Part shown: positions 5,579-25,486 of the stretch, piece after piece
How positions within the stretch are numbered: position 1 is the first letter of the stretch
Layout of the letters: each line of letters starts with the position of its first letter
DNA from: a virus
DNA length: 39,057 nucleotides
IMG/VR virus record: IMGVR_UViG_3300017697_000034
Span: 1-39,057 of that record
Direction: 5' to 3' (one strand)
Position numbers and translations under genes: made by a program
The notes under the pieces: model-generated
Database searches by the model: none
What the model saw: the letters and a program-made list of their open reading frames with translations, nothing else
What the model was told of the DNA's origin: nothing

Positions 5579-6025
5579 ATGAAAACAACTAAAATTAATT
5601 GCAGTGGTGCAATTGTATATGCCCTTAATACTAAAAGATTTTTATTCTTACATAGAGCAAGAGGCCGGTCTGGAAATTTATGGGGCCTGGTAGGTGGCAC
5701 TAACGAAGATTTTGAAACTCCATGGGAAGGTTTAACTCGAGAAATTTTTGAGGAGATTGGAGAAATTTCTATTAAGAAAACAATGCCGTTAGAAACATTT
5801 GTTAGTAATGATAGTCGGTTTCACTTTCATACATATTTGTGTGTTATTAATGAAGAATTTATTCCAGTTCTTAATGATGAACATAACGGGTATGCGTGGG
5901 TAGAGTTTGGCAATTGGCCAAAACCATTACACCACGGATTAAAAAATACATTACAAAATAAAATAAACTTAAATAAATTAGAAACAGTATTTAAAGTTAT
6001 AGATTTACTTGACAATTTTAAATAA
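5579..6025 (+). CDS. Nudix hydrolase
   Basis: 148 aa with a near-complete Nudix box: G40-x5-E46-x7-R54-E55-I-F-E58-E59-I-G61. The last hydrophobic position is replaced by E62, with I63 next. The family uses this helix to bind Mg and hydrolyse nucleoside diphosphates linked to another group; T4 has a Nudix enzyme (NudE) of this general class. The preceding strand GNLWGLVGG and the later WVEFGNW fit the fold. Substrate cannot be read from sequence. It starts 13 bases after gp15 with no clear ribosome site, so it may depend on translation from gp15. A Nudix enzyme is out of place among virion genes and is more likely an infection-metabolism gene. Confidence 0.85.
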   Translation: MKTTKINCSGAIVYALNTKRFLFLHRARGRSGNLWGLVGGTNEDFETPWEGLTREIFEEIGEISIKKTMPLETFVSNDSRFHFHTYLCVINEEFIPVLNDEHNGYAWVEFGNWPKPLHHGLKNTLQNKINLNKLETVFKVIDLLDNFK

Positions 6026-6425: not shown

Positions 6426-6914
6426 TTACCATTTACCTACCGGGCAAACTGCATCTACAAGTCTAGTTTTTAAAGGCATTATACAATGACATTCTTTACA
6501 AGTTTTTAATACAGATAGAAAATCACATGCTTTACAAATATCATATCTAGACTCTCGAACTGCTGCATCTGCAAAAATGCCAGGTGCATTTTGGGGATGT
6601 CCACATATTGGATCATTGCTAGTTTCTCGGTAGTTAACAATTTCGTTAATTTCTTCCTCATTTAATTTTCTAACTTGCCAAGTTTGGTACCATTCGCCGT
6701 TATCAAATACAGGAGTTCCTTCTTCTGCTACTTCATCTTCCTCACAATAAGGTTGTGCTTCTGTTATTAGAGGATACACATCATAATTTAATAACAACTT
6801 TTCATTTGGCATTGATGAATTTGTATAAATCGTTGCATCTGGATGATCTATAAATAGTTGTTCAGTTGTATAGTGTATTGGTTGATTGTCTATTATTTTA
6901 ATATATCTTAACAT
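6426..6914 (-). CDS. Tail-fibre accessory protein with C-terminal zinc ribbon (copy 1)
   Basis: 162 aa, one of three paralogues here. Residues 1-90 carry the shared pattern RYIK...YTTEQLFIDHPDATIY, then YPLITEAQP and EEGTPVFDNGEWYQTWQVRK, which resembles the N-terminal part of phage tail-fibre assembly proteins. Residues 120-162 hold six cysteines (C127, C130, C139, C142, C144, C157) ending in CPVGKW, a zinc-ribbon-like tail common in marine phage proteins. It shares a 38-base exact match and a closely similar C-terminal region with the copy at 9608-10093. GAGG before the ATG is the ribosome site. The gene follows a fragment of a lost fibre gene, so it is an accessory without its partner. A chaperone or adaptor role is inferred from pairing with adhesin genes. 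Confidence 0.75.
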   Translation of the reverse strand: MLRYIKIIDNQPIHYTTEQLFIDHPDATIYTNSSMPNEKLLLNYDVYPLITEAQPYCEEDEVAEEGTPVFDNGEWYQTWQVRKLNEEEINEIVNYRETSNDPICGHPQNAPGIFADAAVRESRYDICKACDFLSVLKTCKECHCIMPLKTRLVDAVCPVGKW

Positions 6915-6925
6915 TTTAACCTCAT

Positions 6926-6989
6926 TTATGAAAGAGTAATTGTGATTTGGTCATCACCGGACTTTAAACCGCGTGTATTACTTACATAT
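6926..6989 (-). pseudogene. Remnant C-terminus of a deleted fibre or adhesin gene
   Basis: Read on the minus strand in one frame, this gap encodes YVSNTRGLKSGDDQITITLS followed by a stop (TAA, 6928-6926). The end matches the final strand of the glycine-rich adhesins here (GQIQITLL, GQVTITVQ, GQVTITAI). The frame continues upstream into the last codons of the accessory gene at 6990-7439 in a different reading frame and has no start of its own. The simplest reading is a deletion that removed most of an adhesin gene and fused its tail to the end of the neighbouring cassette. The TRGLKSGDDQ segment is not shared with the other three, so the lost gene may have been a different fibre type. Confidence 0.6.
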
Positions 6990-7439
6990 TTACCATTTAT
7001 TAAATGGACAATAGACTTCTTTGATAGTTGTTTTTATCTTCATAAAACACCCACATTCTTTACATGTAGAAGTTAATTTAATATATCTGTCGCAGGTCTT
7101 GCATATCTCAAGTCTAGAGCTAGCAGTATCTGAATCTACAAACCATTTCTTTCTTTCTTCCTCAATTTCGAGTTTTTCTTCTTGTGTTAACTTTCTAACA
7201 TTCCAAGTTTGATGCCATTCATTATTTTCAAATACTGGAGTTCCTTCTTCAACAGTTTCATCTTCTTCATAGTGAGGTTGAGGTTCTGTTATTAAAGGAA
7301 ATACATTATAGATCGCCAGTAGTGTTTCATTTGGCAGTTGTGTTCTGTGATAAATTACAGCATTAGGATAATCTATTAATAGTTGTTCAATAGAATAATC
7401 TATTATTTCGTTATTTTCTATTTTAATATATCTCGACAT
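6990..7439 (-). CDS. Tail-fibre accessory protein with C-terminal zinc ribbon (copy 2)
   Basis: 149 aa paralogue of the proteins at 6426 and 9608. The N-terminal half keeps the family pattern (YSIEQLLIDYPNAVIY, FPLITEPQP, EEGTPVFENNEWHQTWNVRK). The C-terminal ribbon has C113, C116, C126, C129, C131 and C144, ending CPFNKW. It is the most divergent of the three in its last 60 residues (RYIKLTSTCKECGCFMKIKT), which suggests that the tail was exchanged independently of the N-terminal half. It lies 11 bases downstream of the 344-aa adhesin, with a weak ribosome site, so its translation probably depends on that gene. Confidence 0.75.
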   Translation of the reverse strand: MSRYIKIENNEIIDYSIEQLLIDYPNAVIYHRTQLPNETLLAIYNVFPLITEPQPHYEEDETVEEGTPVFENNEWHQTWNVRKLTQEEKLEIEEERKKWFVDSDTASSRLEICKTCDRYIKLTSTCKECGCFMKIKTTIKEVYCPFNKW

Positions 7440-7450
7440 GCTAACTTTAC

Positions 7451-8485
7451 TTATAAAAGAGTAATTTGTATTTGGCCGGTAGTTGAGTTTACACCGGAGC
7501 TGTTACTTTGATTTGTTCCATTATTAAGGGACCCACCACCGCCTCCGAACCCGGAATATGACCAACCACCTGAGCCGCCTCCACTCCAGCCACCGCCGCC
7601 GCCGCCTCCGCCCCAGCTGCCGCCGCCACCGCCGAAGCCGCCGCCAACGGAACCGGTTGCAACATGCCCTCGAGAATTATTATATAATGTTGGCCAGGTA
7701 AAGTTTCCGCCACAGTGATACGATCCGCCACCGTTCCATCCTTGACCGCCGCCACCTCCACACTGACCACTAGATGCGCTGCAATTGCCATTTGTGCCAC
7801 CCGCGCCGCCACCATTTGATCCTGTGCCGCCAGTTGCACCGGTTCGGCCGTCTTGTTGGCCGTTACTGCTTTGACCACTGCTGCCGCCTCCGCCGGCTGC
7901 AATAAGCGGTTGTGACAAAGAGTTAGGATCCCAGACGAAACTTCCGCCTCCGCCTCCGCCTCCGCCCCAGCCGTTGGTCTGTCGTTCACCCTGTTGGCCA
8001 ACTACTAAACGAAGTGTTTGGCCTGAGGTAAGATTAAAATCACCACGCATTCTTGCTCCCAATCCTCCATTTGTGCCTTGGCGAGTGCATGGGCCGCCGC
8101 CTTGGCCTCCCCAGCATTCAATTCTATATGTGCCATCTTTAGGCACTACCCATATCATTTGACCACTCGAAGTATTAAAATACGCAGTGTCGTTTTTAAA
8201 GGAATCTCCTCCAGTAATTCCGTTTCGTGCTTGTGTCAAACTTGGTCCATCTTCGAAGTTTGCGCCACCGGGTGTAAATGTAGCAGTAGTAAAATCGTAC
8301 AATCCTGCTCCGCCGCTACCTGCGAGCGCTACCCAATCTTCGCCGTTGTATACTTCTACATAAACTTCTTCAGTATTGTATCTCATCATACCTGTTTGTG
8401 GAGATCCAGGTCGTTGCGCTGTCGTACCAGACGGTAATCTAAGCGATGATGTAGCGTTTATTGTTGTGTTTTTTAAGGTAGCCAT
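7451..8485 (-). CDS. Glycine-rich adhesin, ALK/LTK-like (copy 1)
   Basis: 344 aa. Residues 17-55 are a common fibre module (LPSGTTAQRPGSP, RYNTEE, EVYNGEDWVALAG). Residues about 62-125 form a beta-rich TNF-like segment (TATFTPGG, GPSLTQARNGITGG, IWVVPKDGTYRIECWG). Residues 126-344 are glycine-rich: VVGQQGE at 161-167, an eight-glycine run at 174-181, PLIAAGGGGSSG, four Cys in the variable middle (C133, C235, C242, C258), FGGGGG-type blocks, and a final GQIQITLL strand. This order matches the TNF-like plus glycine-rich domain of ALK/LTK (Pfam PF12810) and also recalls the polyglycine adhesin gp38 of T-even phages. A receptor-binding tip is the likely role. It is preceded by a 14-codon ORF whose stop is one base from this ATG. 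Confidence 0.82.
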   Translation of the reverse strand: MATLKNTTINATSSLRLPSGTTAQRPGSPQTGMMRYNTEEVYVEVYNGEDWVALAGSGGAGLYDFTTATFTPGGANFEDGPSLTQARNGITGGDSFKNDTAYFNTSSGQMIWVVPKDGTYRIECWGGQGGGPCTRQGTNGGLGARMRGDFNLTSGQTLRLVVGQQGERQTNGWGGGGGGGGSFVWDPNSLSQPLIAAGGGGSSGQSSNGQQDGRTGATGGTGSNGGGAGGTNGNCSASSGQCGGGGGQGWNGGGSYHCGGNFTWPTLYNNSRGHVATGSVGGGFGGGGGSWGGGGGGGGWSGGGSGGWSYSGFGGGGGSLNNGTNQSNSSGVNSTTGQIQITLL

Positions 8486-8486
8486 A

Positions 8487-8531
8487 TTATAAGGGTGTCC
8501 ATTCTTTAGTTTTATCTGTTATTATGGCCAT
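8487..8531 (-). CDS. 14-codon leader ORF before adhesin copy 1
   Basis: The ORF MAIITDKTKEWTPL begins with ATG at 8531 and stops at 8489-8487. It is preceded by AAAGGATTTAATATT, the same ribosome-site stretch that precedes adhesin copy 2. Its stop and the adhesin ATG form TAATATG, the junction also seen between the 679-aa fibre and adhesin copy 3. The adhesin has no good ribosome site of its own, so the mini-ORF may recruit ribosomes for it. It could equally be the stump of a deleted gene whose start signals were kept. Confidence 0.5.
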   Translation of the reverse strand: MAIITDKTKEWTPL

Positions 8532-8556
8532 AATATTAAATCCTTTAGTATATATA

Positions 8557-8564
8557 TATTTATT
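8557..8564 (-). promoter_or_regulatory. T4-like late promoter box (AATAAATA)
   Basis: AATAAATA lies in the 84-base gap after adhesin copy 2. Initiation would fall near 8550, shortly before the AAAGGA ribosome site (8546-8541) and the 14-codon ORF. It would give adhesin copy 1 and its accessory their own late transcript. Confidence 0.5.
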
Positions 8565-8569
8565 CTTTC

Positions 8570-9580
8570 TTATTGTACAGTTATAGTAACTTGGCCATCA
8601 TTCTGTCTAGTTGATCCGGTGTTACTTTGATTTGATCCACCATTGTAAGATCCGCCTCCGCCACCTGAACAGCCACCACCTGAGTAGCCGCCGCCGCCTC
8701 CACCGCCATTACAGCCGCCGCCGCCTCCACCACCGAATCCTGCAAAGCCACCGCTACAAACAAATTGATTGCCGCCTAGGGCGCCATTTCTAGGCGCATA
8801 GGCAATGCCGCCATAACTGCCGCCGCTTTGGCCGTTACTCAACCAACCTGCGCCTGCACCGCCCCATCCGCTGTTTGTTGCTGTGCTTCCGCCGTTGCCG
8901 CCGCTGCCTGAAGCATAAGATCCGCCGTATGATGTACCGCCACTTGTTCCAGTTTGACCGCCGGTGGTATTGTAGCTTCCACTGCTACCTGCACCGCCGC
9001 CACCGCCTGCTACAATAAGTGGCTGACTATCTGTTGCATTCCTAAATACATATGTGCCGCCGCCGGCACCATTACGACTCATGTTAGCTCTTTGACCAAC
9101 TATTATTCTTATAGTTTCGCCTTCTGTCAAATTAAAATCACCACGCATTCTTGCGCCTCGTCCTCCACGACCGGAGTTTCCTTCATCGCCACCTTGTGCG
9201 CCCCAAGCTTCGATTGTATATGTGCCGTCTGTAGGCACTGTCCATAACATAATTCCACTTGAAGTATTAAAATACGAAGTGTCGTTTTTAAAGGAATCTC
9301 CTCCAGTAATTCCGTTGCGAGCCTGCGTGAGACTCGGACCATCATGACCTGTCTTGCCTCCTGGTGTAAATGTAGCAGTAGTAAAATCGTACAATCCTGC
9401 TCCACCTCCACCTGCGCCCAACCATTCGCCTACACTACTATCATACACTTCGAGTATTTCTTCTTCGGTATTATAACGAAAATCACCTGTTACAGGACTT
9501 CCTGGACGCTGCGCATTATTTCCTGTAGCAATTTTTAAAAATCCCGTATCATTAATTGTTGTGTTTTTTAAAGTAGCCAT
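8570..9580 (-). CDS. Glycine-rich adhesin, ALK/LTK-like (copy 2)
   Basis: 336 aa paralogue of the genes at 7451 and 10106. Module order is the same: NNAQRPGSP module (21-57), TNF-like segment (64-126, ending LWTVPTDGTYTIEAWG), then the glycine-rich domain (127-336). This copy shows the closest resemblance to ALK: IIVGQ at 159-163, GGGTYVF, PLIVAGGGGGAG, then FGGGGGGGCNGGGGGGGYSG at about 282-301 and a closing DGQVTITV strand. Cysteines are C275, C290 and C304. Its first half is nearly identical in DNA to copy 1, including 41 exact bases. The ATG follows AAAGGATTTAATATT. Unlike the other two, it has no zinc-ribbon accessory gene directly after it. Confidence 0.82.
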   Translation of the reverse strand: MATLKNTTINDTGFLKIATGNNAQRPGSPVTGDFRYNTEEEILEVYDSSVGEWLGAGGGGAGLYDFTTATFTPGGKTGHDGPSLTQARNGITGGDSFKNDTSYFNTSSGIMLWTVPTDGTYTIEAWGAQGGDEGNSGRGGRGARMRGDFNLTEGETIRIIVGQRANMSRNGAGGGTYVFRNATDSQPLIVAGGGGGAGSSGSYNTTGGQTGTSGGTSYGGSYASGSGGNGGSTATNSGWGGAGAGWLSNGQSGGSYGGIAYAPRNGALGGNQFVCSGGFAGFGGGGGGGCNGGGGGGGYSGGGCSGGGGGSYNGGSNQSNTGSTRQNDGQVTITVQ

Positions 9581-9599
9581 AATATTAAATCCTTTAGCA

Positions 9600-9607
9600 T
9601 ATTTAGT
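9600..9607 (-). promoter_or_regulatory. Weak late-box variant (ACTAAATA) before adhesin copy 2
   Basis: ACTAAATA matches the late box at only 6 of 8 positions, but it sits at nearly the same distance from the same AAAGGATTTAATATT ribosome-site block as the AATAAATA box before the leader ORF. The parallel layout suggests that a duplicated promoter has drifted. Confidence 0.3.
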
Positions 9608-10093
9608 TTACCATTTACCTACCGGACAAACTGCATCTGTAAGTCTAGTTTTTATAGGCATTATACAATGGCATTCATCGCAAGTTTTTAATACAGACAG
9701 TGAATCACATGCTTTACAAATATCATACCTAGATTTCTGCACTGCTGCATCGGCAACAAACGATGGAAACCCTACATCTGTATCTAATACTATAGTTGTT
9801 TCTATTAAACGATTATCTATAATTGCTGTTATTTCTTCCTCATTTAATTTTCTAACTTGCCAAGTTTGTTTCCATTGGCCGTGTTCAAATACAGGAGTTC
9901 CTTCTTCTGCAGTTTCATCATCAAGTAGATCCGGTAATTCAACTGTTATTAAAGGATACACGTTGAATTGTCTTAATAATGCCTCGTCTGGCATTTTTGA
10001 CTTTTTGTAGATCATTGCGCTTGGAAAATCTATTAATAACTGTTCTATAGTATAATTTTCCGGAATTCCATTAGTTAACTTTATATATGTCAT
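9608..10093 (-). CDS. Tail-fibre accessory protein with C-terminal zinc ribbon (copy 3)
   Basis: 161 aa paralogue of the genes at 6426 and 6990. N-terminal pattern: YTIEQLLIDFPSAMIY, YPLITVELP, EEGTPVFEHGQWKQTWQVRK. Ribbon cysteines: C126, C129, C138, C141, C143 and C156, ending CPVGKW. The C-terminal 45 residues are almost the same as in copy 1 (SRYDICKACD, LSVLKTC, CHCIMP, KTRL). It lies 12 bases after adhesin copy 3, with an AAAAAGG ribosome site, the same adhesin-then-accessory order as at 7451/6990. Likely function, by context only: folding, trimerising or attaching the adjacent adhesin. Confidence 0.76.
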   Translation of the reverse strand: MTYIKLTNGIPENYTIEQLLIDFPSAMIYKKSKMPDEALLRQFNVYPLITVELPDLLDDETAEEGTPVFEHGQWKQTWQVRKLNEEEITAIIDNRLIETTIVLDTDVGFPSFVADAAVQKSRYDICKACDSLSVLKTCDECHCIMPIKTRLTDAVCPVGKW

Positions 10094-10105
10094 TTTTATA
10101 CCTTT

Positions 10106-11122
10106 TTAAATTGCAGTTATAGTAACTTGGCCATGATCTGCTCGTTGGGCTCCACTAGTATTTCCATTAGAATTACTTTGATTTGATCCAGAGTTGTAAG
10201 AGCCGCCTCCGCCACCATACTGACTACTACTACTTGTGCCGCCTCCGCCACTATAGCCGCCTCCGGCTCCACTTGCTCCATAACAACATCCATCAGTTGC
10301 TGAGCCTCCACCAAATCCACCAATTGCATTACAGCTTTGACCGCCTTGACCACCATTAGTAAATGATTGTGGTCGACTAGCACTACAACTGTCGCTTCCT
10401 GGAGCGTTTCCACTAAATCCTGCGCCGCCGTATACACCACGGAGACTATTGCCGCCAGCTCCACCACTACCACCGGCATATCCCGAACCTGATTGTCCAG
10501 TTGTAGATGTAGTTGCATGACTTCGCGTGCCGTTCCACGGAGAATTTGTATTACCACCACCGGAACAAATTAAAGCAGTATTACTATTAGTAGAAACATG
10601 TGTGCCTCCGCCGCCTCCGCCATAACTTGGACCACCCATTTGGCCAACTAAGATTTTTATAGTTTCGCCTCCAGTGAGAGTAAAATCCCCACGCATTCTT
10701 GAGCCGTATGCGCCATTACCACTGTATCCGCCACCCATAGCACCCCATGTTTCGATTCTATATGTGCCATCAGCTGGCACAACCCATAGTTGGATGCCAT
10801 TTGAAGTGTTAAAATACGAAGTGTTGTTTTTCCAGGCGTCGACACCTGTACCAGTAAGTCCATTTCGTGCTTGAGTGAGACTCGGGCCACTAACTCCTGT
10901 TGATCCACCTGAAGTAAATGTTGCATTAGTGAAATCATATAAACTTGCGCCGCCTGTAATTGCAGCCCAATCTTCGCCGTTCCACATTTCTGCATATTCT
11001 TCAGTTGTATTCCATCGAATCGAGCCTACTTGCGGAGAACCCGGTCGTTGGCCTGTAGTACCAACTGGTAGTCGAATAAATCCAGTGTCGTTTATAATAG
11101 TTTGATTAGCAAATGTAGCCAT
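10106..11122 (-). CDS. Glycine-rich adhesin, ALK/LTK-like (copy 3)
   Basis: 338 aa and the most divergent of the three adhesins. Residues 18-58 are the GTTGQRPGSP module with EMWNGEDWAAITGG. Residues 61-126 are the TNF-like segment (TNATFTSGG, GPSLTQARNGLTG, LWVVPADGTYRIETWG). The glycine-rich domain has ILVGQMGG at 157-164, a GGGGGGTHV stretch, cysteines C186, C246, C264, C279 and C280, a FGGGSATDGCCYG block, GGGGGSYN and a closing HGQVTITAI. It starts one base after the stop of the 679-aa fibre (TAATATG), so it is probably translated by coupling to that fibre, which would link the fibre shaft with an adhesin tip in one assembly. Confidence 0.82.
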   Translation of the reverse strand: MATFANQTIINDTGFIRLPVGTTGQRPGSPQVGSIRWNTTEEYAEMWNGEDWAAITGGASLYDFTNATFTSGGSTGVSGPSLTQARNGLTGTGVDAWKNNTSYFNTSNGIQLWVVPADGTYRIETWGAMGGGYSGNGAYGSRMRGDFTLTGGETIKILVGQMGGPSYGGGGGGTHVSTNSNTALICSGGGNTNSPWNGTRSHATTSTTGQSGSGYAGGSGGAGGNSLRGVYGGAGFSGNAPGSDSCSASRPQSFTNGGQGGQSCNAIGGFGGGSATDGCCYGASGAGGGYSGGGGTSSSSQYGGGGGSYNSGSNQSNSNGNTSGAQRADHGQVTITAI

Positions 11123-13519: not shown

Positions 13520-16500
13520 TTATCTTGCTAGGAAGAATCCAAGTGCTACTGGTGCACCGTCAATTCCGCCTGTAAAGTTCATCTTTGCTGTAATATTTAG
13601 CTGACCGCCGCTGGTTGTTGTAATTTCATTGTTTGCAATGAATACTGTACCTGCTGTTATTGTGTTAACATTCAAACTGGACTGTCCGCCACCGATCTGT
13701 GCAGTAATATACGATTTAATTGCACGCTGTGTTGGAACAACACTATCACTGTTAGCTGTAAAGAACGGGTCTGTACTAAACTGTGTAATAATAGCTGAAC
13801 CAATACCAAGACCAATACCATTAAGTTGTAATGATTGTAATCCTGCTAAGTTAAATGCGTCAGCATCCAATGTCGCAGTACCTGTACTTTGTTGTACTCC
13901 AAACAATCCACCAACGTTAAAGTTACCGTCTTGGTCTGTACTTGTAAAGAACACACGACCACCGTTACTTGCTAGTTGCTGGCTTTCTTGTAGTGCTGTC
14001 GTAATATCCACAAACGGATAATTTGTATCAGCTTGGTTGCCAGTGCCAATGTACAAGAAGTCGTGTCCTGTTAGTCGTACTTGCGAGTACTTGTTAGTTG
14101 CAGTAATTAATGTTCCATCTAATGGAGCAACTAATGTTGTTAATCCCGGACTTAATTGGAATGTTGCATTATAGTCGCCTTTATCACCTAGTATGTTACT
14201 AATAGCAACTAGCTTATAGAACACACCTGGTCTATTAATAAATTCAATATTTGACCCTGGTTCTGGTAAATCAAACAATTTTTTAACAGCAATAAAGGTA
14301 CTTGCTTGGAATAAGTCAGCTGCACCATCACCGCTAAGTTCGGTTGTAGCAGTCTGATATCCTGTGCCTCTATTAATAAAGCTTGGATTACCTAATACAC
14401 CGTCGCCTTGTCTTGCGTCTGTAGGAGCAACAATAGTTGCGTTAGGATCAGCAACAGTTACAATTGGTCCTGTTTTAAACTCAGCTCCACTAAATGTTGC
14501 AGATTCAACCACTACTGGTGTTCCGCTATTTGCAATTAAACTAACTGTTAATGTTGTACTATTCGGTACTGTATTAATATAATATATTGTATTGTCAAAC
14601 AATCCTGAAGTTGCAACTCCAGTAAATTTAATTTGTTGTCCAACAATCATATTATCAGTTGAATCAACTGTAATTGTATTAGTAGCAGTTGAACTTACAG
14701 CACTACCTTTCGGATAACCTGATCCTGGTTCAATCATTCTAGTTTTATTAGCCGAACCATCTGCTTCAGATATTCTACCAATTGCCTTGGCACCTGTTTT
14801 AATTCTTGCTGCTACAGTACTTGCAGTATCAGTTAATGTGATCCAAGTTGGAACATTTCCAGGATTACCAAATGCTAGTGCATGATAATCGCCACTTGCA
14901 GGTAGTGTTTGTTTGGTCCAAGTTAATCCGTCTGGACTAATTGCACATTCATCTGAGCCTTCAGCTACTGCTACAAATAGGCCCTGGCCATATTTAACAG
15001 TGGACCAAGTTTGTGAACTTGGCAATCCTGCTGGAGATTCTATCCAAGTACTTCCTTTATTGTAACTTATTGCTACTTCTCTAGTTCCAGAAGCAATTGC
15101 AACAAAGCGGCCGTTACCGTATGCAATACTTGACCATAATGTGCTTGCAGACAAGTTACCACCAGCTGCCCAAATAATACCGTTAGTACTTGTAAACGCT
15201 TCGTTGCCGCCGCTATTAACTGCAACATATACTCCTGCACCGTATGCAACTCCACTTAAAGTTCCTGCACCTAATACTGGTGTAGTACGAGATACCCACG
15301 AACTGCCATCTGTTGAAGTTGCTGCACTTCCTGAGCCCCCTGCGCCACCTACAGCAACAAATACTCCGTTACCGTATGTTACTGCATTAAAATTGCTGTT
15401 TGGCAGAGCAGTGCCTGCGTTCCAAGGATCATCAACTGCATCGGTTAATAATAGATTTGCGTTTGCCGTTGATCCATTTGCAATTGCTACAAACTTAGCT
15501 GATGCATCAGTAATTGTTATTGTAGGAGTACTTGTGTATCCTACACCAACAATTGGATCATCGTCAATGTCTACACTAAATTGTAATGATTGAACTCCTT
15601 GATTGTCTACTGTAGCAACTGCTTGTGCCGGTGTACTTGCGCCGCCTCCGGATATTGTAACAGTAGGAACACTAGTATATCCGTTACCAAATGTTTGTAC
15701 AGTAAGTTTAGTAAGTTTATCAGTTTCTGCTGTCACTGTCGGAACACCGCCATAACCTGCACCAGTTGTAGTAAGAATAACTTCTTGTATTATACCATTT
15801 AATACTGTAGCAACCGCAGTCGCTGCGCCTCCGCCTGAAGTAGGCGTAATAGTAATAGTTGGAGCACTTGAGTACCCTTGTCCACCGTTTATGACATTAA
15901 TACGAGCAACCTGTGCTGGTCCTGGTAGACCGATACTATTAAGTTCGCCAAGTTCAGCTGTTAGTACTGCGCCCGAGCCGCCTAAGCCGCCTACAGTTGC
16001 AGTTGCAGTTGCTCCTTGTCCACCGCCAAAAGCAGTATCAATCCAATTAGCACTTGCAACTGTGCCGCCTGCTGTCCAAGTTGTACCATCTGTTGAGTAT
16101 GTTGTAGATGTGCCGCCGTTCTGTAGTGCAACAAATCTGCCAGATGCATATGTTGCTGTTGCGTATGCAGTTGCACTATCTGTTGTAGTAGCTGTAGCTG
16201 CAAAGCCTGGCGCACTATAAGTAATGCTAGGTTCTACAGTATAACCTGTTGTTAAGTCTAACGCTGCTGCAATAGGTGTTCCAGGAACAACATGATCCCA
16301 ACCTGCTGCATACAATGTAACATTTTTAGTTTCATTTGTTAATGTTGCAGTTGCGCCGCCGTCAGTTGCACTCACTGTAAATGTTGTTGAGTTTGGAATA
16401 GTAGTTACATAATATTCAGTAGTAGCTGATAGGCCTCCAATTGTACTACCTAAGTAAATTGGCATATTAACATACAACGAATACGTATCTGCTACTGTTA

Positions 16501-19500
16501 GTATGTTACCTGTTGCGCTTGATGCAGTTACAGTTAAATTATCAAAGCTACCTTTGTAAACTCTAGCAACTTTAGTACCGTTGCTAAATTGTAGTATCTT
16601 AGCATATTGCCCAACACCTGTACCTGTTGTAAGCTGTATGTGCATTCCGACATATGCATTAGCTAACGCAGTGTCAGTTGCTGCAAGTTGGCCTGTAATT
16701 AAGTCGCCGCCCTGTGCAACGTTTTTAGCAGTTACATAATTCTCGCCGCCAATACCGTTACCGTCGTCTAAATCAATTAGTCGTGTTTCAAATATACCGG
16801 AATCACGGAACTCATCTGCAATTACTGTTGCATTAAATCCGTCACCGCTAATTGCATATTGTGCGTTAGTGTAACCTACACCTGCGTTATCAAACTCAAG
16901 GCTTAGTACTTCTTGACCAGTTGAAAGAACACTTGTTGAAAACGCATCATTTGATAAGTTATCAACATTGCAGAACAATGGAACTTCGCCAGTATCAGTG
17001 CCTTCAGCAATAACGCCGTATGTACCATAAGACGAGTTACCATTTGTAGCACGAATTCTTGCACCAAAGTCTGCAATGTATCCTGCATAGTTATAGTATG
17101 CAAATACAGATACAAGCTCTGTTAATGAGTTGTTACCACTACACCATACGCCAATTCCGTCGCTTAATACTTGCGTAAAGTCGTTACTAACCATTGAACG
17201 GTTACCGCCTGCGTGTAATCCGCCATCAATTTTATTACCAACACATCCAACGCCAAATGTTGTTACATTTTGAATATATGGTGATTTATTAGTGATCCAT
17301 GCTTCGGTATCATTTGGACCAAACCCTGGATCAAGTGCAACATATGCACCTGCTGTTGGGCGTCTTGTTCCAAACTCATTAAGCTCAGTTAGGTTGCCGC
17401 GCAGGCCGTTTAGTGTTTGATTACGGACACCAGTTGAGTTACGGACACGATACATGTCTGAGCGCTCTGAACCATTTACTGCATTTAAATAAAGTTCAGC
17501 TGCTCGTAATGCTTTAAAGTTTCCTGGGTATTGTAAATCATATGTAATTGCATCAATATAACGATCCATATCTCTGCGACATGCTACTGGCTCAAACCTA
17601 TATGTAACACTACTACTACTTAGATTTACAATAGTTTTATCTACTGTAAATGAAGTTGTATTAGGTACTGTTGCAATAATGTACTTAGTATTGTCGCCAT
17701 CTAGCGATACTGGATCGCCAACACCGAACATATGCGGAGTAGTTGTAGTGATAGTAGTACCTGTAATGCTAGCAATAGTGTTAGTAAATTCAGAACTTAT
17801 CCAAGCTGTTGCTTCGTTAGCTAAGAAGGATTTATTAGCTGTAAGTATATCAACACCGTTAATTGTTTGAATATCATTAAAGTATGTAACAGTGCCGTTA
17901 ATTTCTGGACTGTCGTTTTCGCCTTTATCAAGCATGTTAATAACAATATCCATTAGTGCATTGACACGCTTTTTAGCATTAGTTATTACTAAGCCGTTAA
18001 CAATATCGACCCCAGAAACATATGATGCTATAACATTTTTAAGTTCTCTATACGACTGTACTGTTGCAGTTTTTTGTGCACCTAATACTAAATCTGCTTG
18101 TGCGCCTCTGTAGTATGATAGAGCTGCTATAATTGTGCGATAGTTACTATCAGTCATCATATCCCAGAAAATTGCTTCTGTAATATATCCAACATCGCGT
18201 TCGCATTTAGCTGAATCATAAGTTAGTGTTGGATAATTTGCTGCAATATATTCAGTAACACTAGTTTTTATAGCACTAACCGAACCTGATATGTTAGCTG
18301 CTTGTTGTTTCAATGCAGCCGTTACTCCGCTTGTATCAGGATTAATTTTAATAAGCATTGATTGATTAGCAGCATTGTCATCTGTAAGTACAACTGTAGT
18401 ACCGTTAAAGAATTCTGCTACGGTAAACTCAGTAGTACTTGGTGTGGAATTTACATAATAATCTTGATTCCCATCAAGATTAGCAAAGCCAAACAATACT
18501 TCAGGACCGAGGTTTATTACATCGCCTATCTTAAGACCGTGTGCTGTAGTTGATGTTAATACATTTGATGTAACATCATTAATTGTTATTGTTGGAAGTG
18601 CTGTTAAGTTAGTATCAATAATATCTTTTACTTGTTCAATTAAAGTGTTAACGCGAGCTGCTGAATTTGCATCTCCTACAATTTGTATATCTTCATCTCT
18701 AAACTTAGGTGTTATATTACTTTGTAGTGCAAATGGACTTCCGAGAGTGTTAACAGCTAAGTCGCTTGCTAAAAACTTAACATAATCATATGCAGCAATA
18801 GTTGCTGCTTTATCATTTGCGTCAACTTGTAATTGCGTAGCCAAGTAATAAGACAGTCCAAATTGTTCCGAAGCTACTGTACTGCTATATGTTAAATCAT
18901 AACGCAATGCGTCTACTAACATTCCGACATCTCGCGAACATTTGTCTTGACTGAACACAATACTTGGATATTCTATTGATAAAAATTCAGAAACTTCTGC
19001 CTGTATAAAGCTTTTATTCTCCCAAATTATTGTACCTGCTGCTACATCATTATCGTCGGCACTACTTAGTGGCTTCCACTTAGTTGACGGACGGGCGCCT
19101 CCATTAATTGTAGCAATAATATCATCAATAATAATTTCTGCGTGTGCTGATGCTGTGTTAGAAACTGTATGCTTAACTTTATGCTTTAAGAAATTAATAG
19201 AACCTATAGTTGCTTTTAGTTCGTTATTAATTACTTCTGCTGTCGAAGTCAATGTTCTATAATAGGACATACCTGCTTTAATTGAAGCAAAGTTTGAACC
19301 AGTTACTGTATCGCGTGCAATAGCATCTACCATCAAGCCAGCATCTCTGCGGCAAGTTGCTACATTGTATTTTAAATCCTGATTAAATTTCTCTACCCAA
19401 GATACAACATCTTCTGCAATTTCTGCTCTCTTAGATAGCAATGTATTGTATGCATATCTAACATCAGCATCTGCCCATTCTGTTGCAATGTTGATTGTTG

Positions 19501-22500
19501 CATTGGGCAATCCGTTATTAATCCAATCAAGGATGTCATCAACTCTATCTCCAGCAAAATTTCCAGATATTATACTGCCTGGGGTGCCAGTTACATCTTG
19601 TGTTAGGTTGTTGCCTGTTGATTTTGTTACTGTAGTTTCTGTTATTACTTCTGTTATTACTGTTTTTAATCTGCCATATGCTGCTAGTGTTGCTGGCAAT
19701 TCGTTTTCACTAATTGTTAATACAAAGTTTGAATAATATGCACTACCTGCAATTAACGATTGTGTATTGCCGCCATATGTTAGATCATATCGAACTGCGT
19801 CAACAATATAACCTACATCGCGAATACAACGATCTTGTCCATCTGATGAAATACTTCCCCAAACAGCATCATAACCATTGCCAGAATCTTCTAACCATTT
19901 ACGAATTTCTAATTGGATAAATGCATGGTTAGCAGCTAACTGATTAGCGCCGTCTACATAGCCAGCAAATGTCCCAGTAGCATTTGAAGTTGTTACATAA
20001 GCAAGATCATCTACTGTGTTAATGGGCGTTGGTAACATAATGCCCGGTAATGATCCTAAACCATTTTGTATAATATTCTTAATGTCGTCTGTGCGAGCTG
20101 CTGCAAAATTAGCAGCATCTGTTGTTCCAACTTCACTTTGAACACCTGTTGTAATCTTGGTTAATTCTTCTTCAATAAAGTTAATAGTGCTTATTGTAGC
20201 ATCTAGCTGATCAGCTAATACAATGCCTGCTGAAGCAATACCACTTAGATATGAAGCACCAGCTTTTGCACTTCTAAAATCACTTCCAAATATTACATCA
20301 TACAAAATTGCATCAATAATATAACCTACATCACGCGAACATAATGCTGTATCATATGTTAAATCAGGATATAGGAAGTTAATGTAATTAATTACACCTG
20401 CTTGTATTATTGGTTTTCTGCTATCTACTACTGCTTTAAAGTCTTGTAATGCAGTGTCGACCCAAGCAATTGATGGATTAATTATAGTAGGTAAACTGCC
20501 GGTATCGATAGTTTCTTTGATTTCATTAATTCTATCTACAGCAAATACCGCAGCGCCTGCACTACCAGCTGTTCCGCTAGTGTCTTGTGATGTCACATTT
20601 CCTGTAGTTGGTGTAATTGTAACACCTGTAGCAATGTCATCAATAATTGCTGCTAAACGAGTTTGTACAGCTAATAATGGAGTTTTTTGGTCTGCTGGCG
20701 GAACAAACGAACCTTCTGTATAGTAACTTCTAGCTACTACAACAGTTTCTAGGTTACCTCTATAAGTAAAGTCATAAATTAATGCATCAATAGTAGATTG
20801 TACTCTATCTAAGAATACAGTTTTATCCCCTGCACTTAATGCTGTCCAAACTGCGTTGTAGGAATCAACCATAAATGCTTCTACTTCATCAATTAAGAAT
20901 TGAGTGTTAGCTGTAACTAATCTTCGAGTATTAAAGAACCCAGTGTCGTAAAGTGTTGGATCGGCATATGTAAACGAAGTTTGCTTTGTGCCTAAAATCA
21001 TAATATCTCTTATTAATTCAGCGTTTGCTTTAACTGCATTTGTGCCGGAAGTTATTTCTTTAATCTCGTCTCTCACATGTGAAATTGTTGCTGTAGTTGC
21101 TAACAATTGATTGTCAATAACTACTTCTGCTGAACTAATAGCTCTTCGATAGCTCATTCCTGATTTTAATGAACGGAAAGTACTGTTAAACATAATATCA
21201 AACCGCAGTCCGTCAATTATAAATCCAACATCTCTTGAACACTTAGCATGGTCATAAACGAATTCACTATAAGTGTTTGTAATGTACTGTAGCACTCCTG
21301 GTACTACTGTTGTATCTGCAATTACATCGTCAGCATCTGAATCAATAGCTGCTGCTGCCCATGAATAGTCTGGGAATGTTTTAGCAGGCATTGCACTCAT
21401 ACTACCTGCATCGAGTGCATCAATAAGTATATCTAATAGTGTTGCTAATTCTGTTTCTTTACCTGCGTCAGTTACATATCCATTAATAATTGTTTTAAGT
21501 TGAATCATTGAAGCAACTTCAATTTGACGCTGGTCTACTGGTAAATTAACTGCCCAACCTGTAAAGTATGCTTTAGTAGCTTCAGTAATTGCACTGTTAC
21601 CACCATATTGTATATCATAGCTAAGTGCATCAACAATGTAACCTGTATCTCTTTCGCATACACTTTGATCATATGCAAAACTCGGATAGGTAGTATTAAT
21701 CCAACTAGTAATGTCTGAGATAATAGTAGCTTTGTTGGTTTGGAGTTCTGATCGTGTAGCAAGTGCAACACTATTACCAGTATCAGTAAATACTAATGCA
21801 TTAGCGTTTGCTGCACCGTTTTGAATAATATCAATTACTTCATTCCAATATGCTGTATTTCTAGCAATTGCTGTACTGTCAGATAGTAGTGCTCCAACTA
21901 GATCACGGCCTTGAGTAATTGCACCAACAGTTTCAGTTAATTGATTTTCAATAACTTCTTTGCTCATACTTCTTCTATATGCTAATCCATCTCTTACAGC
22001 ATTAAAGTTAGAACCTGTAGCTACATCATATGCAGCGCCAATTTTTAGTAGTTCTAAATCTCTACGGCATTTTGCACTACTGTATTTAAATGATCCAAAA
22101 TTACTGTTAACATAGTCAATTACTGAGTCTTGTATATCTGCTGTTGCATTTGTAATATTTGTGTTAGCAGTTTGTAGCGTTGAAGGAACCCAAGTAATAT
22201 CTGGCGCAATTGCCGCAGCAAGTGTTCCGTCTGTATCAATTGTGTCGTAAATTTCTTGTATACGTGCATCTGCAAAAGTTTCTGCGGCCGCACTGCCTGC
22301 TGTTCCTAAAGTATTTTGTAGTACAGTGTTACCTGATGTTGGTGTAATTGCTGTTTCTGTAATTACATCGCCAATGATTGATTTTAAGTGTGCGTAGGTT
22401 GCAAGAGTTTCATCTTTCTTACCTGTGCCATATACCGGATTGCCATTTACAAAATAACTTCTTGCCGCAACAGTAGTTTCTAAGTTGCCTCCATAAGTTA

Positions 22501-25486
22501 AATCATAGCGTAGTGCGTCGAGAATAAACCGTGTGTCTCTTTCACAATTTGCTGTGTTAAATGTAAAGTCTGCTGCAAATGGAGCAATTTCTCCGTCAAC
22601 TTGTGCTTGAATCCAGGCAGTTTGTTCTGCAACAATAAAGGCAACGTTTGCTTCAAGTTGTGCAACAGCATTAGCGTGTCCGGCATCACTTGCGTTGTTT
22701 GCTCCACTTGTAGGTGTACTACCTACTGCTGGTAAACTTGGAACTTCATCTAAACCTTTATTTAAGATATCTGTGATTAATTGTGTGCTAGTGTTTACTC
22801 TATCAGTAGCATCTGTTGTTCCGCCGTAACCATTAATAAATTGTTGTTTTGCAGTATTTCCGCTAGTTGGCACAACCTCAATATTTTGCATTAGACTAGG
22901 AATAATATCTTTAATTCTATTTAATGCGCTTGTAGTTTTGTCGTTGTCGTTAGCTAGTAAAGGATTTGCAGGCGCAGGCTGCACAACAGAAGTACGGAGT
23001 TCGTCGCCGTTAATTGCTGTAAATTCTGGAACAATAATCGGCAGTACTTCATTATAAGTACCTGTTTTTAAGAATACAGTAGTGTTTGGATTTGTTACTG
23101 TAGGAATTGCTGTTGCGGATCCTGCAGTAATACCAGTTATAATAATGTCTAGTAAGTCGCCAGCTTTTTGTATGCCAGTAGCTTCTGCTTCTAATGACAA
23201 GTCAATAATTTGTCCTGCTCTTTGATCAAATTGGACAACATTTAATGATTGATAATTTATCGGTTGTTGATTATTTAGAACTTCATTTAAAATATTCTTT
23301 AATTGTGTATATGCTGCAACTGTTTGTGCGCCTTGTGCTCCAAATGTTCCATTAATATACTCATTACCTGCTTGCGTATAATAAGACTTGGCAGCAGTAA
23401 TAGTTTTCCAAGTGCCGCCTCTTGAAATATCATATGCTAGTGCATCAACAATATATCCTGTATCGCGCTCACATTTAACAGTATCGTATGCAAGATTGCC
23501 TTCCATGTTACCAGAAGTAGTAGTTAATACTAATGGAATTCCGCTATTTTGTACAGTACTAATTCTAAATGTAGTTGACGAAGTTATTGTATCAACATAG
23601 TAAATTGTTCCTGCTGTTACGCCACCTAGTGTACCATCAAACACAATTGGCATGCCTGCTGATAAGTTACTAGTATTAGCAGTTGTAAATACTTCAGTTC
23701 CAGTTGTTGACGCAGTAATAATGACGTTATATGTATAACTAATCCAATTAGTTATTTCTTTCATTAAAAATTCTTTGTTGTTCTTAATAATATTTTTTGC
23801 TTGTGGGTTTAAATAACCATCACGCACTTGCTCCATTGCATAGCGCACGCTTGCCCAAGGTTTATCAACTGTTAATCCAGATGCTGGTGCTGGTTCGTTA
23901 ATTCCCAATGGTCCAACGTAAACAACGTTATCAATTAGACCATAGTTTGCCCAAGAAGGTTCGCCGTCAGTAACACGAAGAATCTGACCATCAACACCAA
24001 CCGGCAATCTAGTAGGTCCTTGTTCACTGTAATAAACTAAGTCGCCGTCTGTTGTTAAGGATAGTGATTCAGCACCTAGTGTTAACAAATTCCAATAAAC
24101 TGCTGTTAGATCATTGTCGGGACGATTTGCAGTTTCTGCTGTGTGTTTAGTAACACAAATAAAGCTACTAGCGCCAAAAAATACAACATTGCCCTTTTCA
24201 TAAACGGCTGTTGCTTTCCAGGACGACGAGTTGCCGCTCTGCGTAATTGCAGTAACAGCGCCGGCTGAAGCACCTGTAACAGTTATCAAAACATTGTTCG
24301 CAGGAGTTGTGCCGCCGACATTTGCGCCTGGAATAAGAATAATGTCATTTATTGAATAGCCAGTGCCAGCAAACCCAGTAGATATAGTTGCAGTATATAC
24401 TGTACTAGATTTTATAATATCAAATCTTGCACCCGACCCTGAACCAACGGTGTTATTACCCTGAACTTGTAAAAAAGTTTCTGTACTTGCTGTAAAATTA
24501 ATACCACTATTAAGTTTACTCCAGTTAGCATCAAGTGCAACATCAGCTGATCCTAGACTGTCAGCAAGAGCAACATATGTTGTTCCTCCAATACGGACAA
24601 CATCACCTACTCTATAATTAGTTAATGCGCTCCAGTCGCCTTGGAATTTAAATCCTGTTGTAAAAACATCCCAGTCGGCTAAATTAGTACTCGGTGTACT
24701 ATTTGTATTATTTGTTTTAGCAACATAAACATAGCCACCGTATGTTACAGTGTCGCCTGTTTGGTAATTAGATGCAGTGTTCCATGAATCTTCAAATTGG
24801 AAGCCTTCAATAAATGATTCCCAGTTTGCTTCATCTACTTCAAAGTCATCCGAAGTATGCGGAGTTGTAGCAATCCAAATATTGCCACCATACTTAACTA
24901 AATCATTAACACGGTATCTAATGTTTGTTGCCCAAGTGCCTGTGTATACTAATCCGTCACTAAACAATGTCCATTTAGATTGATCATTTTCTAAGCCTAA
25001 TGTTGCTGTAGCAGACGACACGTGAGCTGTATTACATACATACACATATCCGCCGTAGCGTACTAAGTCATTAAGTTTGTATCTTGTAGCAGTCGACCAT
25101 GAACTTTTAAAATCAAAAGAAGTTGCAAAGGGCGTCCATTTTTCTAAGTCGGCTTCTAAACCTAAGAATGTTGGACTTTCAAATGTAGCCGAAGTGTGTC
25201 CAGTTTCAGCAATGTAAACGTTTGCACCGTATTTAATAACGTCACCAGGTGCATATTCAATTTCGGGTCCCCAATCAGCTTTCCAACTAGTTCCGTCTGA
25301 CACAATATTCCATTTTGGAACTGGGTCATTTAAGTCCGAGTTGAATTCAACCGATGCTGTGTGGTTCTTAATACATATGTATGATTTTCCACCAAAACTT
25401 ACAACGTCATCTGCAACGTATGTTGACGCTGAGGTCCAGGTGCCTTGCCAAACAAAGCGTATTCTACCTAGTTTAAATTCTGCCAT
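13520..25486 (-). CDS. Giant modular tail-fibre protein (3988 aa)
   Basis: An uninterrupted 11,967-base frame. From the N-terminus: about seven W-x-Y-x-GD-V-x-YGG-x-Y modules (residues 1-460) resembling CBM5/12-type chitin-binding folds; a GSGSGARFDI/GYSINDIILIPG beta module; twelve Cys-Arg-Asp helical repeats (about 670-2660); a right-handed beta-helix-like segment (about 2690-2830) with ALDPGFGPNDTEAWI and SDGIGVWCSG; small 'GLxxGTxYYV' beta modules; YGNGxFVAV...S.DGxxW propeller blades (about 3365-3540); and a C-terminal part with VRLTGHDFLYIGTGNQ, TDQDGNF and VPTQRAIKSYI. Such multi-thousand-residue structural proteins are known in marine T4-like phages. Late box GATAAATA and a GGAG site precede it. 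The paralogue at 25526 shares most parts but has only one helical repeat. Confidence 0.85.
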   Translation of the reverse strand: MAEFKLGRIRFVWQGTWTSASTYVADDVVSFGGKSYICIKNHTASVEFNSDLNDPVPKWNIVSDGTSWKADWGPEIEYAPGDVIKYGANVYIAETGHTSATFESPTFLGLEADLEKWTPFATSFDFKSSWSTATRYKLNDLVRYGGYVYVCNTAHVSSATATLGLENDQSKWTLFSDGLVYTGTWATNIRYRVNDLVKYGGNIWIATTPHTSDDFEVDEANWESFIEGFQFEDSWNTASNYQTGDTVTYGGYVYVAKTNNTNSTPSTNLADWDVFTTGFKFQGDWSALTNYRVGDVVRIGGTTYVALADSLGSADVALDANWSKLNSGINFTASTETFLQVQGNNTVGSGSGARFDIIKSSTVYTATISTGFAGTGYSINDIILIPGANVGGTTPANNVLITVTGASAGAVTAITQSGNSSSWKATAVYEKGNVVFFGASSFICVTKHTAETANRPDNDLTAVYWNLLTLGAESLSLTTDGDLVYYSEQGPTRLPVGVDGQILRVTDGEPSWANYGLIDNVVYVGPLGINEPAPASGLTVDKPWASVRYAMEQVRDGYLNPQAKNIIKNNKEFLMKEITNWISYTYNVIITASTTGTEVFTTANTSNLSAGMPIVFDGTLGGVTAGTIYYVDTITSSTTFRISTVQNSGIPLVLTTTSGNMEGNLAYDTVKCERDTGYIVDALAYDISRGGTWKTITAAKSYYTQAGNEYINGTFGAQGAQTVAAYTQLKNILNEVLNNQQPINYQSLNVVQFDQRAGQIIDLSLEAEATGIQKAGDLLDIIITGITAGSATAIPTVTNPNTTVFLKTGTYNEVLPIIVPEFTAINGDELRTSVVQPAPANPLLANDNDKTTSALNRIKDIIPSLMQNIEVVPTSGNTAKQQFINGYGGTTDATDRVNTSTQLITDILNKGLDEVPSLPAVGSTPTSGANNASDAGHANAVAQLEANVAFIVAEQTAWIQAQVDGEIAPFAADFTFNTANCERDTRFILDALRYDLTYGGNLETTVAARSYFVNGNPVYGTGKKDETLATYAHLKSIIGDVITETAITPTSGNTVLQNTLGTAGSAAAETFADARIQEIYDTIDTDGTLAAAIAPDITWVPSTLQTANTNITNATADIQDSVIDYVNSNFGSFKYSSAKCRRDLELLKIGAAYDVATGSNFNAVRDGLAYRRSMSKEVIENQLTETVGAITQGRDLVGALLSDSTAIARNTAYWNEVIDIIQNGAANANALVFTDTGNSVALATRSELQTNKATIISDITSWINTTYPSFAYDQSVCERDTGYIVDALSYDIQYGGNSAITEATKAYFTGWAVNLPVDQRQIEVASMIQLKTIINGYVTDAGKETELATLLDILIDALDAGSMSAMPAKTFPDYSWAAAAIDSDADDVIADTTVVPGVLQYITNTYSEFVYDHAKCSRDVGFIIDGLRFDIMFNSTFRSLKSGMSYRRAISSAEVVIDNQLLATTATISHVRDEIKEITSGTNAVKANAELIRDIMILGTKQTSFTYADPTLYDTGFFNTRRLVTANTQFLIDEVEAFMVDSYNAVWTALSAGDKTVFLDRVQSTIDALIYDFTYRGNLETVVVARSYYTEGSFVPPADQKTPLLAVQTRLAAIIDDIATGVTITPTTGNVTSQDTSGTAGSAGAAVFAVDRINEIKETIDTGSLPTIINPSIAWVDTALQDFKAVVDSRKPIIQAGVINYINFLYPDLTYDTALCSRDVGYIIDAILYDVIFGSDFRSAKAGASYLSGIASAGIVLADQLDATISTINFIEEELTKITTGVQSEVGTTDAANFAAARTDDIKNIIQNGLGSLPGIMLPTPINTVDDLAYVTTSNATGTFAGYVDGANQLAANHAFIQLEIRKWLEDSGNGYDAVWGSISSDGQDRCIRDVGYIVDAVRYDLTYGGNTQSLIAGSAYYSNFVLTISENELPATLAAYGRLKTVITEVITETTVTKSTGNNLTQDVTGTPGSIISGNFAGDRVDDILDWINNGLPNATINIATEWADADVRYAYNTLLSKRAEIAEDVVSWVEKFNQDLKYNVATCRRDAGLMVDAIARDTVTGSNFASIKAGMSYYRTLTSTAEVINNELKATIGSINFLKHKVKHTVSNTASAHAEIIIDDIIATINGGARPSTKWKPLSSADDNDVAAGTIIWENKSFIQAEVSEFLSIEYPSIVFSQDKCSRDVGMLVDALRYDLTYSSTVASEQFGLSYYLATQLQVDANDKAATIAAYDYVKFLASDLAVNTLGSPFALQSNITPKFRDEDIQIVGDANSAARVNTLIEQVKDIIDTNLTALPTITINDVTSNVLTSTTAHGLKIGDVINLGPEVLFGFANLDGNQDYYVNSTPSTTEFTVAEFFNGTTVVLTDDNAANQSMLIKINPDTSGVTAALKQQAANISGSVSAIKTSVTEYIAANYPTLTYDSAKCERDVGYITEAIFWDMMTDSNYRTIIAALSYYRGAQADLVLGAQKTATVQSYRELKNVIASYVSGVDIVNGLVITNAKKRVNALMDIVINMLDKGENDSPEINGTVTYFNDIQTINGVDILTANKSFLANEATAWISSEFTNTIASITGTTITTTTPHMFGVGDPVSLDGDNTKYIIATVPNTTSFTVDKTIVNLSSSSVTYRFEPVACRRDMDRYIDAITYDLQYPGNFKALRAAELYLNAVNGSERSDMYRVRNSTGVRNQTLNGLRGNLTELNEFGTRRPTAGAYVALDPGFGPNDTEAWITNKSPYIQNVTTFGVGCVGNKIDGGLHAGGNRSMVSNDFTQVLSDGIGVWCSGNNSLTELVSVFAYYNYAGYIADFGARIRATNGNSSYGTYGVIAEGTDTGEVPLFCNVDNLSNDAFSTSVLSTGQEVLSLEFDNAGVGYTNAQYAISGDGFNATVIADEFRDSGIFETRLIDLDDGNGIGGENYVTAKNVAQGGDLITGQLAATDTALANAYVGMHIQLTTGTGVGQYAKILQFSNGTKVARVYKGSFDNLTVTASSATGNILTVADTYSLYVNMPIYLGSTIGGLSATTEYYVTTIPNSTTFTVSATDGGATATLTNETKNVTLYAAGWDHVVPGTPIAAALDLTTGYTVEPSITYSAPGFAATATTTDSATAYATATYASGRFVALQNGGTSTTYSTDGTTWTAGGTVASANWIDTAFGGGQGATATATVGGLGGSGAVLTAELGELNSIGLPGPAQVARINVINGGQGYSSAPTITITPTSGGGAATAVATVLNGIIQEVILTTTGAGYGGVPTVTAETDKLTKLTVQTFGNGYTSVPTVTISGGGASTPAQAVATVDNQGVQSLQFSVDIDDDPIVGVGYTSTPTITITDASAKFVAIANGSTANANLLLTDAVDDPWNAGTALPNSNFNAVTYGNGVFVAVGGAGGSGSAATSTDGSSWVSRTTPVLGAGTLSGVAYGAGVYVAVNSGGNEAFTSTNGIIWAAGGNLSASTLWSSIAYGNGRFVAIASGTREVAISYNKGSTWIESPAGLPSSQTWSTVKYGQGLFVAVAEGSDECAISPDGLTWTKQTLPASGDYHALAFGNPGNVPTWITLTDTASTVAARIKTGAKAIGRISEADGSANKTRMIEPGSGYPKGSAVSSTATNTITVDSTDNMIVGQQIKFTGVATSGLFDNTIYYINTVPNSTTLTVSLIANSGTPVVVESATFSGAEFKTGPIVTVADPNATIVAPTDARQGDGVLGNPSFINRGTGYQTATTELSGDGAADLFQASTFIAVKKLFDLPEPGSNIEFINRPGVFYKLVAISNILGDKGDYNATFQLSPGLTTLVAPLDGTLITATNKYSQVRLTGHDFLYIGTGNQADTNYPFVDITTALQESQQLASNGGRVFFTSTDQDGNFNVGGLFGVQQSTGTATLDADAFNLAGLQSLQLNGIGLGIGSAIITQFSTDPFFTANSDSVVPTQRAIKSYITAQIGGGQSSLNVNTITAGTVFIANNEITTTSGGQLNITAKMNFTGGIDGAPVALGFFLAR
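17515..23480 (-). repeat. Twelve tandem Cys-Arg-Asp helical repeats in the giant fibre
   Basis: Twelve copies of a unit centred on C-x-RD-x-GYI-x-DA-x-x-YD lie about 400-735 bases apart. Two versions mostly alternate: type A with YGGN (for example CERDTGYIVDALSYDIQYGG) and type B with GSNFRS-K-G-SYxR (for example CSRDVGYIIDAILYDVIFGS). Copy 6 lacks the Cys-Arg-Asp. The longer gaps before copies 11 and 12 contain inserted small beta modules. Confidence 0.85.

Follow-up and report, generated by a model that had tools for sequence, protein, structure and literature searches.

The window analysed here is the whole of a 39-kb virus fragment (39,057 nucleotides), which comes from the part of a large myovirus genome that encodes structural proteins. 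Two of its products, the sheath-stabiliser and a structural protein beside it, share ~32 to 39% identity with their counterparts in Agrobacterium phage Atu_ph07 and Pseudomonas PA5oct-like phages. A MutT/NUDIX hydrolase gene (5579-6025) adjoins the sheath-stabiliser gene, and several PA5oct-like phages have NUDIX genes annotated at the equivalent place.

Within 7451-11122 we found three intact open reading frames (ORFs), termed tip proteins 1 to 3 (Table 1). Each has the same layout, with an attachment module of ~57 amino acids (aa) followed by a TNF-like plus glycine-rich (TG) domain of ~275 aa. For tip protein 1, the module covers residues ~1 to 57 and the TG domain residues ~62 to 344, and this protein shares 60% and 51% identity with the other two tips. 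A fourth, unrelated gene lies in the same interval, between the second and third tip; the original prediction, which concerned the three adhesin-like proteins, was silent on it. Directly upstream of tip protein 3 is an S74 tail-fibre gene, and further tail-fibre-like ORFs and the sheath-stabiliser homologue make up the rest of the tail context. Still further upstream, past the tail-fibre gene, the minus strand carries two giant ORFs, 13520-25486 (3988 aa) and 25526-33841 (2771 aa).

Table 1. Features of the tip locus, in window coordinates
Feature	Position	Strand	Basis
Second partner copy, 162 aa, after 6990-7439	6426..6914	-	PF19668 E 8e-6, just below cut-off; conserved gene order
Partner gene of tip protein 1, 149 aa	6990..7439	-	PF19668 E 1.3e-8, above cut-off; conserved gene order
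TG-domain tip protein 1	7451..8485	-	Intact ORF, 344 aa
TG-domain tip protein 2	8570..9580	-	Intact ORF, 336 aa; used for the structure model
TG domain of tip protein 2	8573..9391	-	Residues 64-336; model and ALK alignment
Partner gene of tip protein 3, 161 aa	9608..10093	-	PF19668 E 5e-4, below Pfam cut-off; conserved gene order
TG-domain tip protein 3	10106..11122	-	Intact ORF, 338 aa
Tail-fibre protein, 679 aa	11124..13163	-	C-terminal S74 (endosialidase-type) chaperone, PF13884 E 3e-11; PHROG tail-fibre matches

Attachment module and partner genes

The N-terminal ~57 residues of the tips are most simply read as an attachment module. Across the fetched loci, 229 ORFs contain the module, and a TG domain is present in only 20 of these ORFs; since many of these loci were chosen for the module, the count describes the variety of what it is joined to rather than a frequency. 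Two stretches of a 479-aa window protein (36648-38087) match several PHROG families that contain the tips' attachment module, and the same protein also has virion-protein matches.

The fourth gene in the interval starts 12 nucleotides (nt) past the stop of tip protein 3, and we refer to it and its relatives as partner genes. The window's partner proteins (149 to 162 aa) consist of an ~85-aa N-domain and a Cys-rich, DUF6171-like zinc-knuckle tail, while some partners elsewhere carry just one of the two. In viral loci selected by their TG domains, every one of the 28 N-domain ORFs begins at most 112 nt downstream of a TG gene with the same orientation; several of these contigs are near-identical, so the independent cases are fewer than 28. 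Partner and TG genes sometimes alternate in these loci. Of 78 tail loci picked by their attachment module, none was found to contain the N-domain. A Salmonella phage has a relative of the N-domain immediately 3' of a tail-fibre gene. In the window, two successive partner copies (6426-7439) follow tip protein 1 and none directly follows tip protein 2, as if a tip gene had been inserted or a partner displaced.

The N-domain was modelled with confidence (pLDDT ~90). Structure searches with the partner model returned no match to a solved fold, including the Pam3 fibre chaperone gp25 and any Tfa protein. At the sequence level there was no match in the PDB and no Pfam Tfa match, and neither the partner profile nor its members matched a tail-assembly family. 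Neither fold nor family linked the partner to a known chaperone in these searches; its gene position fits a Tfa/gp25-type chaperone. The partner is probably a dedicated assembly factor for the tip; because fold, profile and members match no tail-assembly family, it is the position of the gene that points to this role.

Relationship of the TG domain to ALK and LTK

The original prediction described one ordered set of motifs in all three proteins. A motif scan bore out the order: TFT-x-GG, GPSLTQARNG, (L/I)W-x-VP-x-DGTY-x-IE-x-WG and VGQ follow one another in this order in 3/3 tips. Some later motifs deviate from the description, with GGWSGG in place of GGYSGG and TGQIQI in place of (D/H)GQVTI in tip protein 1, and ALICSGGG in place of PLI-x-AGGGG and FGGGS in place of FGGGGG in tip protein 3. 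In an alignment of 71 sequences, the conserved glycine motifs are separated by variable, insertion-rich blocks.

A single Pfam family, PF12810 (ALK_LTK_GRD), covers both the phage and the ALK/LTK domains. The profile match that had been proposed as a check was obtained above the curated cut-off of 24.5 bits for tip protein 2 (36.9 bits, E 5.1e-9) and tip protein 3 (35.4 bits, E 1.5e-8), and just under it for tip protein 1 (22.4 bits, E 1.4e-4). In the PF12810 search of the record, tip protein 1 is listed over the cut-off, at 28.6 bits with in-frame neighbours. When single sequences were compared with all PDB chains using phmmer, tip protein 2 matched LTK (1.8e-11), ALK (4.5e-11) and nematode scd-2 (0.001), and ALK was matched by tip protein 1 (2.6e-7) and tip protein 3 (2.3e-7). 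A profile of 12 phage domains found ALK at 3e-15, LTK at 1e-13 and scd-2 at 3e-9, with no further significant PDB entry (the next was at 0.08).

We modelled tip protein 2 as a monomer with template-free AlphaFold2 from 71 sequences. The model has a mean pLDDT of 85.4 and a pTM of 0.81, with values >90 across most of the jelly roll; residues 1 to 60 are poor, and the model is least certain in the N-terminal module and in some of the glycine-rich turns. The AlphaFold2 weights are older than the ALK structures of 2021, which makes it unlikely that the model simply reproduces them. In this model, of one of the three tips, TNF-like strands (residues ~68 to 160 and 316 to 335) form a jelly roll that holds a glycine-rich insert (~168 to 311) as in ALK/LTK, and residues 64 to 336 align with ALK 678-984. 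All 21 significant PDB matches from Foldseek were ALK, LTK or scd-2. With VIA-align, the model superposed on LTK with a Z of 32.6 (2.1 Å, 236 residues, 36% identity), on ALK with Z of 30 to 32 and on scd-2 with Z of 23. A large drop followed, to Pam3 fibre gp24 (8.5), Bxb1 tail-tip protein 9d93_Qa (8.2) and TNF ligands (near 5). Profiles and predicted monomer thus agree with the proposal that the tips share the ALK/LTK fold, including a predicted TNF-like jelly roll.

The resemblance might instead reflect convergence from glycine-rich composition. Glycine makes up 27 to 32% of the TG domain, and the glycine part of tip protein 2 alone adds mostly biased score in phmmer. However, the specific score comes mostly from the TNF-like half: residues 70 to 165 of tip protein 2, which lie outside the glycine runs, gave 36 bits to ALK with a bias of 0.2. 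The exactly reversed protein sequence gave zero matches. Since the TNF-like half scores with so little bias and the reversed sequence matches nothing, chance and glycine bias are excluded, and glycine composition is ruled out as the cause of the match. The order of jelly roll and then insert is also kept across the 236 aligned residues. We give convergence almost no credence. The TG domain of the tips is homologous to the ligand-binding domain of ALK/LTK, most clearly in its TNF-like half. The original prediction had left the choice between common ancestry and convergence open; the low-bias TNF-like signal, the reversed control and the aligned fold settle it in favour of common ancestry.

It had further credited the tips with the full ALK/LTK architecture. 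This holds for the TG domain and does not extend to the EGF-like, MAM and kinase domains, which are absent: the tips have no Pfam match to kinase, EGF or MAM, and the 336- to 344-aa ORFs end at the TG domain.

Spread of the TG domain and the origin of the ALK ectodomain

When collections were scanned with the full-length alignment, the matches in viral contigs were mostly to the N-terminal module and there were none in genomes, so the TG domain alone was used as the query. Related TG domains were found in at least 80 viral-contig loci and in 59 genome-assembly loci, the latter mostly from Bacteroidota and also from Myxococcota, Actinomycetota and others. Many of the related TG ORFs are 500 to 3800 aa long. 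Named phage relatives are Synechococcus phages S-SZBM1 and S-CREM1 and Actinomycetia phage DSL-LC01, the last with a 2853-aa protein (L083:7542-16103) that has one TG domain and is annotated "ALK tyrosine kinase receptor." Several of the phage proteins matched by Foldseek in BFVD/UniProt are likewise named "receptor protein-tyrosine kinase" or "glycine-rich domain-containing protein." These names are apparently automatic, and phage tail proteins named as receptor tyrosine kinases expose a naming problem.

A viral source for the receptor ectodomain had also been raised. The TNF-like segments of ALK and LTK, searched against the fetched loci, had their best matches among genome-derived proteins (65 and 62 bits), compared with 37 and 31 bits for the window proteins; the glycine part of ALK alone found no matches in these loci. 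Among the best TNF-like matches are proteins from an uncultured bacterium (L208:5356-7419) and from a metagenome-assembled genome labelled Klebsiella pneumoniae (L189:1461-5531), a label that may be unreliable. In the free tree, ALK/LTK group with 54 genome-derived rows (100/99). A tree constrained to join ALK/LTK to the window phage clade had a higher likelihood than the free tree and was not rejected (p-AU 0.586), so we draw no claim on the origin of ALK from these trees.

In our view, it is improbable that a phage tail adhesin of the window kind was the source of the ALK/LTK TG domain. The homology is real, and the AU test tolerates a joint clade with the window proteins. However, the bacterial sequences match ALK better, and the free tree places ALK/LTK with bacterial rows, though the free search missed a better tree and the alignment has 109 columns with ALK and LTK beside no other metazoan or protist sequences. 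Because bacterial sequences match ALK best and the trees cannot place it, a viral source is unsupported. A broader origin, in which an early animal ancestor acquired the ligand-binding domain from a prokaryotic surface or phage-tail adhesin, is a possibility that we hold only tentatively and consider rather doubtful. If it were true, the sensor of an oncogenic receptor would have begun as a microbial adhesion module. Phage tails and large bacterial proteins are two further settings for the TG domain, in neither of which it is joined to a kinase, and the origin of the ALK ectodomain is therefore testable.

Proposed role of the tips and comparison with known systems

Our preferred reading, to which we assign a probability of roughly 75%, is that the three ORFs are receptor-binding tail tips in which the module docks, the TG domain contacts the host and the partner assists assembly. 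The short N-terminal module would dock each tip to the tail or a fibre of the large myovirus. From the jelly roll of the C-terminal TG domain a polyglycine-helix lattice would project, and the variable turns between its helices may touch the host surface. With Pam3 gp24 as a guide, the jelly roll probably assembles as a trimer, and the small gene that comes immediately after a tip gene would supply its dedicated assembly factor, as gp25 does for gp24. Three diverged tips could give the phage more than one binding specificity. Receptor binding can reasonably be inferred from the tail context and from Pam3 gp24. Homology, gene order, modularity and the predicted fold are features of the locus as analysed; from there we infer the presence of the tips in the virion, the trimer, the geometry of the polyglycine helices, the contact with a receptor and the part played by the partner.

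Alternatively, the TG proteins could be decoration or structural parts of the virion, such as fibre collars, that do not themselves bind a receptor. The N-terminal module is common to many other ORFs, including the 479-aa window protein with virion-protein matches; a related fold is seen in Bxb1 tail-tip protein 9d93_Qa (Z 8.2), and glycine-rich bundles occur in the tail-wing-brush and tail-spike domains of Bxb1 (PMC13243192). However, the tips adjoin a tail fibre with a terminal chaperone, the paralogues have diverged from one another, and Pam3 gp24 is a precedent as a fibre tip. We consider a purely structural role unlikely and favour receptor-binding tips.

The parallel between phage proteins and ALK is already known (PMC9608196; PF12810), and the window phage offers a far closer instance of it, though not the first. 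What is added is a phage group with three copies that is far closer to ALK/LTK and recognisable from single sequences, whose attachment module is different and whose linked partner gene is of no recognised kind. With 36% identity to human ALK/LTK in an end-to-end structural alignment, common ancestry is visible from single sequences, whereas the published phage example was recognised by structure. The linked partner gene may be a chaperone for polyglycine folds.

Three known systems can be set beside the tips. In S16 gp38 (6F45), a polyglycine-helix lattice has variable turns proposed for host recognition (PMC6851490), and gp38 and ALK have been treated together as glycine-rich helical bundles (PMC13243192). 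The gp38 lattice is built on a beta-helix, whereas that of the tips is predicted to sit on a TNF-like jelly roll. S16 gp38 was absent among the matches listed by either structure search, an absence that does not exclude likeness.

The cyanophage Pam3 fibre paper published the TNF-like/glycine-rich/ALK parallel and described gp24 (7ypx/7yfw) as a trimeric TNF-like plus glycine-rich fibre with a dedicated chaperone, gp25; gp24 superposed on the ALK ectodomain 7LIR at 2.6 Å over 125 Cα (PMC9608196). As is predicted for the tips, gp24 is a phage tail protein with a TNF-like jelly roll and a distal glycine-rich lattice, and tip protein 2 aligns with it (7ypx) over 126 residues at 21% identity. The two differ in docking: gp24 uses an N-terminal helical bundle and the tips would use the different ~57-aa module. 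The alpha-helical trimerisation bundle is not in the tip protein 2 model, where residues 1 to 60 are strands and coil of low confidence. The partner gene in the window likewise differs from gp25 in matching no known tail chaperone searched.

Human ALK/LTK and nematode scd-2 (7nx0, 7n00, 7lir) differ from the tips in having EGF-like, MAM or kinase domains; the tips have a phage tail context and no known cytokine ligand. In the TG domain itself, tip protein 2 resembles ALK/LTK (236 residues, 36% identity) far more than it resembles gp24, and the two homologous domains have their elements ordered alike from end to end.
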